DNA of 64,000 nucleotides. It comes from Propionibacterium sp. (GTDB lineage Bacteria; Actinomycetota; Actinomycetes; Propionibacteriales; Propionibacteriaceae). The stretch spans positions 1 through 64,000 of the forward strand of contig JAAYTZ010000113.1 of assembly GCA_012517965.1 (NCBI GenBank), written 5' to 3'. The notes beneath the pieces were generated by a model. The model worked only from the letters and a program-made list of their open reading frames with translations, was not told the DNA's origin and did no database searches. Of the stretch, positions 35,017-36,746 are shown one piece after another (the first letter of the stretch is position 1; every line of letters begins with the position of its first letter). The translations under genes were made by a program, and so were the position numbers.

Positions 35017-35098
35017 GCCGACCGGGGGCGTCCCGGCGAGACCGCCGGGGCGCCCCCGCCCATTCCCAGGACGGACGAGCCGATCTCTCGGCTGGATT

Positions 35099-35110
35099 CC
35101 AGAATGCGGG
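35099..35110 (+). repeat. 12-base repeat CCAGAATGCGGG, copy 2
   Basis: Identical to 31914-31925. Its core forms the left half of the dyad AATGCGG-GCAG-CCGCATT (35103-35120) just upstream of the metY leader promoter. Confidence 0.4.
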
Positions 35111-35120
35111 CAGCCGCATT
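35103..35120. promoter_or_regulatory. Dyad upstream of the metY leader promoter
   Basis: AATGCGG and CCGCATT are perfect 7-bp inverted halves around GCAG. The dyad ends where the putative -35 box begins, a suitable site for an activator or repressor. No factor is assigned. Confidence 0.4.
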
Positions 35121-35147
35121 TGCATTTCGAGGGACGGCGTCTACCCT
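35120..35147 (+). promoter_or_regulatory. Predicted promoter of the metY leader
   Basis: TTGCAT (35120-35125), a 16-base spacer and TACCCT (35142-35147) place +1 at 35154, one base before the ATG of the Cys-rich leader ORF. This is the same leaderless geometry as many genes in the window. Confidence 0.55.
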
Positions 35148-35154
35148 CTACCCC

Positions 35155-35235
35155 ATGCACACCACGTCCTGGCCCCTCGGAAGCGCTCTCGTCGCTGTCC
35201 GCGCCATGATGTGTTGTTGTCGAATGTCGGCCTGA
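35155..35235 (+). CDS. Leaderless 26-residue leader peptide with Cys-Cys-Cys
   Basis: A short ORF too small for the track, ATG 35155 to TGA 35233-35235. It encodes 26 residues ending in MMCCCRMSA. The three cysteine codons are all TGT (35212-35220), a codon rare at this GC content. It begins one base after a predicted +1, has no Shine-Dalgarno, and is 227 bases upstream of metY. Leaderless small ORFs with runs of cysteine codons that attenuate sulfur genes are known in mycobacteria, so a cysteine-sensing role is proposed: slow decoding of the Cys codons when Cys-tRNA is short would alter folding of the downstream leader. Expression is not shown. Confidence 0.7.
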   Translation: MHTTSWPLGSALVAVRAMMCCCRMSA

Positions 35236-35462
35236 TCCGACCGAAGGCCACCCCACTCCCATCAGGGGGTTCGGGGTCGGGCCCGCTTCGTGGCCCTGGG
35301 TGGCCGAGTCTCAGTCGCTCCGCCGGGTGTGCCCGAGGCGACTGAATTGCCCATTGTGCGATCCCGCATTCTGCGGTGTTTCGACGCATTTCGCTCACAT
35401 TGTGGGCGCGGCGATTCGTCGCGCCCGCGTGGTGAATCCGCAACAAGTCCAAGGAGAGAATC
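35236..35462 (+). promoter_or_regulatory. metY: metY leader with candidate attenuator hairpins
   Basis: The stretch between the leader ORF and metY has no gene. GTCGG-CCTGAT-CCGAC (35226-35241) folds over the leader ORF stop codon. CCACCC...GGGTGG with an internal GGGCC/GGCCC pair can form a larger mid-leader structure. GGGCGCGGCGATTCGTCGCGCCC (35404-35426) forms a strong hairpin about 25 bases before the metY ribosome site AAGGAG. These elements fit a translation-coupled attenuator, but no U-tract terminator is visible, so Rho-dependent or translational control is as likely. No known riboswitch consensus was recognised. Confidence 0.5.
35363..35373 (-). repeat. Inverted 11-base copy of CAGAATGCGGG
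   Basis: CCCGCATTCTG is the reverse complement of the core of the repeats at 31914 and 35099 and lies inside the metY leader. Confidence 0.35.
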
Positions 35463-36746
35463 ATGCCGTTGCGTCCCGAGACGCTGTCCGTCCACGCCGG
35501 CCAGGAGCAGGCCGACCCCACCACCAACGCCCGGGCCGTGCCGATCTACCAGACGACGTCGTACGTGTTCGACGACACGGCGCACGCCGCCGACCTGTTC
35601 GCGCTCCGGACGTCCGGCAACATCTACACCCGCATCATGAACCCCACCCAGTCGGTGTTCGAAGCCCGCGTCAACGCCCTCGAGGGCGGGGTCGGGGCGC
35701 TCGCGACGGCGTCCGGAGCGGCGGCGATCACCTACGCCGTGCTGAACCTGGCGAGCGCCGGCGACAACATCGTGGCCACCTCCACCCTCTACGGCGGCAC
35801 CTACGCGCTGTTCGCCCACACGCTGCCGCAGTTCGGCATCGAGACCCGGTTCGTCGACCCCGACCGGCCCGACGATCTCGCCCGCCACGTCGACGACCGC
35901 ACGCGGCTGGTGTTCGGCGAGATCATCGCCAATCCGCTCATCAACGTCCTCGACCTGGACGCCTGGTCCGCCGCCGCCCACGCCCTCGGCCTGCCACTGG
36001 TCGTCGACAACACCGTCGCCACCCCCTACCTGGCGCGGGTCTTCGACCACGGCGTCGACGTGTCGGTGCACTCGGCCACCAAGTACCTCGGTGGTCACGG
36101 CACCTCCATCGGCGGCATCATCGTGGACTCCGGCCGGTTCGACTGGGCCGCCCACCCCGGCCGCTTCCCGGGGCTGACCAGGCCGGACGCCGCCTACCAC
36201 GACGTCGTCTGGACCGACGCCGCCGGGCCGGCCGCCTATGTGACCCGCGCCCGCACCGTCCTGCTCCGCAACACCGGCGCGGCCATCACCCCGTTCAACG
36301 CCTGGCTGTTCCTGCAGGGGCTGGAGACGCTGCACCTGCGCCTCGAACGGCACAGCAGCAACGCCCTCGCCGTGGCCCGTCATCTGGAGGACCACCCCGC
36401 CGTCGCCTGGGTCAACTACGCAGGCCTGCCGTCGAGCCGCTGGCACGCCATCGCCGACCGGGTGCTGACCGGCCGCGGTTACGGCGGCATCCTCTCGTTC
36501 GGTCTCAAGGCCGGACGCGAGGCCGGCGCCCGCCTGGTGGAGAACCTCGGCCTGTTCTCCCACCTGGCCAACATCGGCGACGTCAAGTCGCTGGTCATCC
36601 ACCCCGCCTCGACCACCCACTCCCAGCTGACGGACGCCGAACTCCGACTCGCCGGCGTCGCCCCCGAACTCGTGCGGCTGTCCATCGGCGTCGAGCACGT
36701 CGACGACATCATCGCCGACCTCGACCAGGCGCTCGCCGCCCACTGA
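35463..36746 (+). CDS. metY: O-acetylhomoserine sulfhydrylase
   Basis: A 427-residue PLP enzyme of the Cys/Met metabolism family. It makes homocysteine from O-acetylhomoserine and sulfide. The PLP lysine is in SVHSATKYLGGHG; PIYQTTSYVF, YTRIMNPTQ and FSHLANIGDVKSLVIHPASTTHSQL are typical of MetY rather than MetB/MetC. AAGGAG is seven bases before the ATG. A 450-base noncoding leader with a Cys-rich ORF precedes it, and a strong terminator follows, so it appears to be a single-gene transcript under sulfur control. Confidence 0.95.
   Translation: MPLRPETLSVHAGQEQADPTTNARAVPIYQTTSYVFDDTAHAADLFALRTSGNIYTRIMNPTQSVFEARVNALEGGVGALATASGAAAITYAVLNLASAGDNIVATSTLYGGTYALFAHTLPQFGIETRFVDPDRPDDLARHVDDRTRLVFGEIIANPLINVLDLDAWSAAAHALGLPLVVDNTVATPYLARVFDHGVDVSVHSATKYLGGHGTSIGGIIVDSGRFDWAAHPGRFPGLTRPDAAYHDVVWTDAAGPAAYVTRARTVLLRNTGAAITPFNAWLFLQGLETLHLRLERHSSNALAVARHLEDHPAVAWVNYAGLPSSRWHAIADRVLTGRGYGGILSFGLKAGREAGARLVENLGLFSHLANIGDVKSLVIHPASTTHSQLTDAELRLAGVAPELVRLSIGVEHVDDIIADLDQALAAH

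Follow-up and report, generated by a model that had tools for sequence, protein, structure and literature searches.

The window (the whole 64,000-nt stretch of Propionibacterium sp. DNA analyzed here) carries on its plus strand a metY gene encoding O-acetylhomoserine (O-acetylserine) sulfhydrylase (positions 35463 to 36746; TIGR01326 score of 624 bits, above the cut-off of 495), which is the regulated gene in the reading developed below. Both the identity of this gene and the 446-nt gene-free stretch in front of it (35017 to 35462) had been given in the original prediction, which was made from the sequence alone, and both were borne out. Direct reading places the metY ribosome-binding site, AAGGAG, at 35451 to 35456. 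Within the gene-free stretch, a short plus-strand ORF runs from 35155 to 35235 (26 codons plus TGA at 35233 to 35235; peptide MHTTSWPLGSALVAVRAMMCCCRMSA), an architecture that is conserved in relatives. Three consecutive TGT cysteine codons, also foreseen near the ORF end, are read directly at 35212 to 35220, forming a CCC run 4 codons from the end of the ORF. Given that cysteine accounts for 0.87% of window codons, the chance of such a run within 26 codons is ∼1.6 × 10−5 by composition. TGT makes up 13 of the 144 Cys codons in window genes, compared to 6/6 in the two leaders of the window genome, the second of which is described below.

Upstream of the ORF, a −35-like hexamer, TTGCAT (35120 to 35125, plus strand; its counterpart is TTGACC in most leaders of genus g9), is separated by 16 nt from a −10-like hexamer, TACCCT (35142 to 35147), which ends 7 nt before the ATG at 35155. 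Given the positions of the two hexamers, transcription is predicted to begin with the A of this ATG or a neighboring nucleotide. The sequence before the ATG (TACCCTCTACCCC, read directly) contains no purine-rich ribosome site, and the start is thereby leaderless in sequence terms, with a −10 hexamer about 6 to 7 nt 5′ of the start codon and no ribosome site. The promoter hexamers, the ORF length, and the missing ribosome site were as predicted; the ORF start, predicted at 35154, lies one base later, at 35155. Measured against the consensus of Escherichia coli, which is the consensus used by the promoter scan, the window promoter is weak and was not called. Its TANNNT −10 pattern is nevertheless common to all related leaders. 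The leader peptide matched no NCBIfam family, and neither a riboswitch (SAM-IV included) nor a T-box was matched by Rfam in the window leader. One small RNA match in the window (E value of 0.97, other strand) was discarded as chance level.

We scanned both strands of 89 metY upstream regions from Propionibacteriaceae (locus L157 was left out), a sample that represents part of the family and a search that single-Cys leaders or other start types would escape. Leaderless Cys-run ORFs were present in 24 of the 89 forward regions and in 0/89 reverse strands. Twenty-one of these are leaders with adjacent Cys codons (CC type), distributed as 16 in genus g9 (for example, MTSTSPATMCCCCAPSMACCRMR), 4 in genus g22 (for example, MFTHGSSSATVVGATVMCCRML), and the window leader; the two-adjacent-Cys criterion misses the CPC leader of genome G059, and a looser search added three, namely, G059 and two weaker cases. 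All 21 CC-type leaders have TANNNT 6 to 7 nt before the start. When the g9 leaders were aligned, the ORF was alignable throughout, and the interval between its stop codon and metY was unalignable. Start, frame, and a contiguous run of Cys codons near the 3′ end are thus kept in several genera while the flanks vary, which is the pattern that the original prediction had proposed as a check on its own reading. The same prediction had allowed for either an independent or a shared case. The leader proved to be a shared trait of the family rather than a one-off, and a second example stands before cysE in the window genome itself. The synonymous share of single-base codon differences was 0.34 against a neutral expectation of 0.23. 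That this excess is modest may reflect an additional constraint on the DNA sequence, as TTGTCGAATG hardly varies among the three genera and recurs in almost every g9 and g22 leader. Most of the upstream regions that have no leader contain a promoter-like hexamer only 30 to 50 nt from metY, leaving no room for a leader.

The second leader of the window genome, MSPGSAGAHAEQRGTARCCCQA, lies 80 nt before cysE, which encodes serine O-acetyltransferase (TIGR01172), with TAGTGT positioned 6 nt 5′ of its ATG (loci L250 [G000:C39:18000-24200], L270, and L301; minus strand). Leaders before cysE were also found in genus g18 (five genomes, ...ALMCMCCC(C)RLG) and in g9 (two genomes), and a weaker one was found in an additional genome from the window's genus. 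The g18 and g9 versions keep the Cys run within other flanks and with other codons (TGCTGC, CMCCCC). The metY leader of two genomes, G138 and G044, stands at the start of a metY-cysK-cysE operon. A search of six genomes with the pattern TGYTGYCGNATG returned mostly chance matches, plus one further leader, MSASVYTIVRPACCRMRMCCR, which in a g9 genome (G051; L205, L230, L268, G051:C8) heads a DUF4395 gene, a thioredoxin-like gene, cysK, and a cystathionine-synthase-type gene; DUF4395 (PF14340) is absent from the window's genome. The Cys-run ORF is thus the first ORF before cysteine or sulfur genes, both in the window genome (metY and cysE) and in relatives (metY-cysK-cysE). Since the leaders precede metY, cysE, metY-cysK-cysE, and cysK sets, their targets are genes of cysteine and homocysteine synthesis.

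The window genome contains two metY copies (35463 to 36746 in the window and G000:C98:25178-26446; 73% identical), and the leader is present only at the window copy. The window's genus is represented by 12 further genomes, none of which has such a leader before its best metY match; the metY found in those genomes is only of the other type, related to the copy at G000:C98. The trait is therefore patchy, and the window metY is a second copy. In a phylogenetic tree, the window metY joined its closest relative, the copy of G059, a member of genus g18 (support 98/91), apart from the g9/g22 group. This grouping with a g18 gene suggests that the window metY may have been acquired by transfer. Like the window leader, that of G059 (TAGCTT, 7 nt, ATG; ...LCPCRRMH; full peptide MHSQPRVDGPVRPTPSLCPCRRMH) begins with MH and contains the GTCGAATG core, so that within this pair the leader was probably inherited together with metY.

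The Cys codons of the window leader belong to a nucleotide core, ATGTGTTGTTGTCGAATG (35209 to 35226, plus strand), that is identical before metY in another actinobacterial family (f35). We searched a 16-nt core in 395 genomes of the class and found it before metY in f35. The core is identical at wobble positions across the two families and contains rare TGT and CGA codons, a composition that fits a sensitive stall site. In f35, members of genus g131 and a single g134 genome have a Cys-run ORF (MCCCRMTSR and variants) about 135 to 150 nt before metY; because a riboswitch precedes it and its ribosome site is GAGG, it is not leaderless. The riboswitch is SAM-IV (RF00634), detected just 5′ of the ORF in 10/10 f35 loci tested (L316 to L323, L326, and L338; 95 to 113 bits), with SAM-IV at about 1352 to 1458 and the Cys ORF at ∼1500 in plus-oriented loci, followed by metY. 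SAM-IV therefore resembles the window leader in standing before metY, but it does so in another actinobacterial family; the window has none, whereas in f35 the riboswitch and the Cys-run ORF stand in tandem. This order, SAM-IV, Cys-run ORF, metY, could represent a two-signal RNA leader for methionine and cysteine, and such leaders would make two-signal RNA control directly testable. We regard as evenly balanced the broader proposal that the Propionibacteriaceae-type Cys-run leaders define a sulfide-capture regulon (metY, cysE, metY-cysK-cysE, and DUF4395-cysK) and that metY in f35 is governed by SAM and Cys-tRNA through the stacked SAM-IV/ORF.

Attenuation by polycysteine leaderless short ORFs has been shown experimentally in Mycobacterium smegmatis (Canestrari 2020, doi 10.1111/mmi.14498, as described in PMC9031893, PMC9094748, and PMC13236596). 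The attenuators of M. smegmatis and M. tuberculosis (Canestrari 2020, as described in those accounts; Shell 2015, PMC4633059) are, like the window leader, leaderless, with contiguous Cys codons near the end; they likewise come first in the mRNA of sulfur or cysteine genes and are conserved while their flanks vary. The targets differ, being metY and cysE in the window genome and, in the mycobacterial example named by those accounts, the cysA2 locus. The window leader is also distinct in belonging to a Propionibacteriaceae-type family with a conserved CCRM core and in that ribosome-site masking is not evident. Cys leader peptides were previously predicted for Mycobacterium and Propionibacterium acnes, ahead of their cys operons, and for Bifidobacterium longum, ahead of cbs (Seliverstov 2005, PMC1262725). 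Those leaders come from the same phylum (P. acnes from the same family) and share with the window leader Cys runs near the stop codon and the lack of a terminator. In the sections of the 2005 report drawn on here, no RNA element is reported for methionine operons, no metY case is named, and leaderlessness, a feature of the window leader, is not considered. Judged by sequence, the window case matches the mycobacterial and 2005-predicted leaders in every testable feature, although masking is weak in the window.

We consider it likely that the window ORF is a cysteine-responsive, ribosome-stalling leader that controls metY. The sensing half of this model is well supported by the ORF itself, its promoter spacing, its conservation, its placement before metY, cysE, and metY-cysK-cysE, and its choice of rare Cys codons. 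From these features we infer the transcription start, translation, stalling, the direction of the response, and the output step, as follows. Transcription would start with the A of the ATG at 35155 or right next to it, and ribosomes would translate the short ORF in a leaderless manner. When Cys-tRNA is scarce, a ribosome would stall within the run of three rare TGT codons close to the ORF end and alter the fate of the downstream leader RNA such that metY is expressed, and MetY would then capture sulfide. When Cys-tRNA is plentiful, the ribosome would finish the ORF and the leader would revert to a state that lowers metY expression.

Three other readings were weighed. The Cys codons could be a coincidence, encoded by chance in the long untranslated leader of a promoter that simply lies far upstream of metY, and the lack of significant pairing of the Cys tract in the window (see below) is compatible with this. 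However, the same start spacing recurs before metY and cysE in many genomes and on none of the reverse strands, and the 3.27-Mb window genome has just 7 copies of TGTTGTTGT, two of them in the metY and cysE leaders. These comparative data largely refute coincidence, which we find scarcely credible. An unlikely reading, if a somewhat better one, takes the core ATGTGTTGTYGTCGAATG to be mainly an RNA element, such as a binding or pairing site, with translation secondary. Its identity at wobble positions in two families, with rare TGT and CGA codons, would be expected of such an element; rare codons would also be expected, however, if they sharpen the sensitivity of stalling, and the cysE leaders of g18 and g9 preserve the Cys run amid different flanks and codons. 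A response to redox state, sensed through the nascent peptide or the Cys pool, has been suggested as an alternative for mycobacterial Cys-rich upstream ORFs (PMC4633059). We judge it very improbable here that redox state rather than cysteine supply is the signal, given that the targets are genes for cysteine and homocysteine synthesis.

Within the preferred reading, a stalling cysteine leader, two output steps can be weighed against the structure of the leader RNA. A small hairpin, GGCCT/AGGCC, spans the ORF stop codon (35229 to 35249, from sequence and folding), and folding yields two strong hairpins on the plus strand, both without a U tract: TCAGTCGC...GCGACTGA at 35311 to 35345 and a G+C-rich hairpin at approximately 35401 to 35433, ending ∼18 nt before the metY ribosome site. 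The hairpins in the original prediction therefore exist, but they are not established as the attenuator it proposed, because there is no terminator and, in the window, the Cys tract shows only weak masking of the metY ribosome site. A search for an intrinsic terminator or trp-type attenuator found no terminator-like site in the window leader, and the predicted fold of the whole leader was only modestly more stable than those of shuffled sequences (z = −2.0). A candidate masking element, CAACAA (35441 to 35446, plus strand), is complementary to the TTGTTG of the Cys tract and lies 4 nt before the ribosome site but is no better than chance: pairing of the Cys tract near the ribosome site did not exceed that of shuffles (P = 0.47 to 0.71), and the modeled freeing of the site by a stalled ribosome was small (2.6 to 1.5 kcal/mol, a gain of about 1 kcal/mol). 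In some g9 leaders, among them those of G177, G081, and G067 (P = 0.002), the Cys tract can pair with a segment directly 5′ of the metY ribosome site, the helix running to 16 uninterrupted pairs in G177 and G081. In a further four g9 leaders, making the Cys tract unavailable is predicted to free the site by 2 to 5 kcal/mol. A general helix between Cys tract and ribosome site was rejected, since it reached significance only within a subset of g9, with a single g22 leader marginal (median P = 0.41 over 21 leaders); the combined masking P value of 0.002 over metY leaders treats related species as independent and is therefore overstated. RNAalifold applied to g9 and g22 recovered only an ORF-internal hairpin in g9 (TCGACG/CGTCGA, in the first 50 nt of the ORF around the first Cys run; L008 and others), the stop-to-metY intervals being unalignable.

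The same cysteine sensor could instead act through Rho-dependent termination in the stop-to-metY interval, with a stalled ribosome shielding the loading site, an output proposed for the mycobacterial and P. acnes cys leaders (Seliverstov 2005, PMC1262725, in the sections drawn on here). No intrinsic terminator is present, and all 20 CC-type leaders other than that of the window have an interval rich in C and poor in G (skew of 0.15 to 0.42, versus 0.00 ± 0.13 upstream of metY genes that lack a leader). Intervals of most cysE leaders are C-rich as well, reaching 0.47 in the window genome and 0.49 to 0.67 in g18. In contrast, the window interval is unbiased (skew of 0.01; maximal C/G of 1.15) and strongly structured, and a Rho-type C-rich loading site is absent from it. 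Moreover, C-richness may merely keep the RNA unstructured, and the mechanism reported for mycobacteria, in the accounts cited here, is translational. On balance, this analysis favors translational unmasking of the metY ribosome site as the window output, at somewhat better than even likelihood, over termination by Rho, which we consider possible but doubtful.

Read in this way, the leaders would extend the mycobacterial cysteine switch to another bacterial family and to new genes (metY and cysE) and would bring cysteine leader control to the methionine side of sulfur metabolism. Among the reported cases compared here, as described in the sources cited, the experimentally tested ones are mycobacterial. 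From their distribution and clear conservation, the leaders point to ribosome-read cysteine control being common across Actinomycetes but overlooked by annotation. The Streptomyces lividans metL leader before metNIQ, which is leaderless by its mapped transcript start (PMC8079986), ends in ...GARCMCRRMCAF and shares CxCRRM with the G059 metY leader (...LCPCRRMH), a comparison of two peptides only. Its authors read it as a methionine/threonine leader (PMC8079986); however, its CMCRRMC pattern resembles the cysteine leaders described here, and it may be rereadable as one of them. Separately, a possible Cys leader, VSMENGVRTRITRACLMCCCR, was observed in a genome of f47, another actinobacterial family (L307, G556), shortly before a gene that, read by eye, is rhodanese-like.
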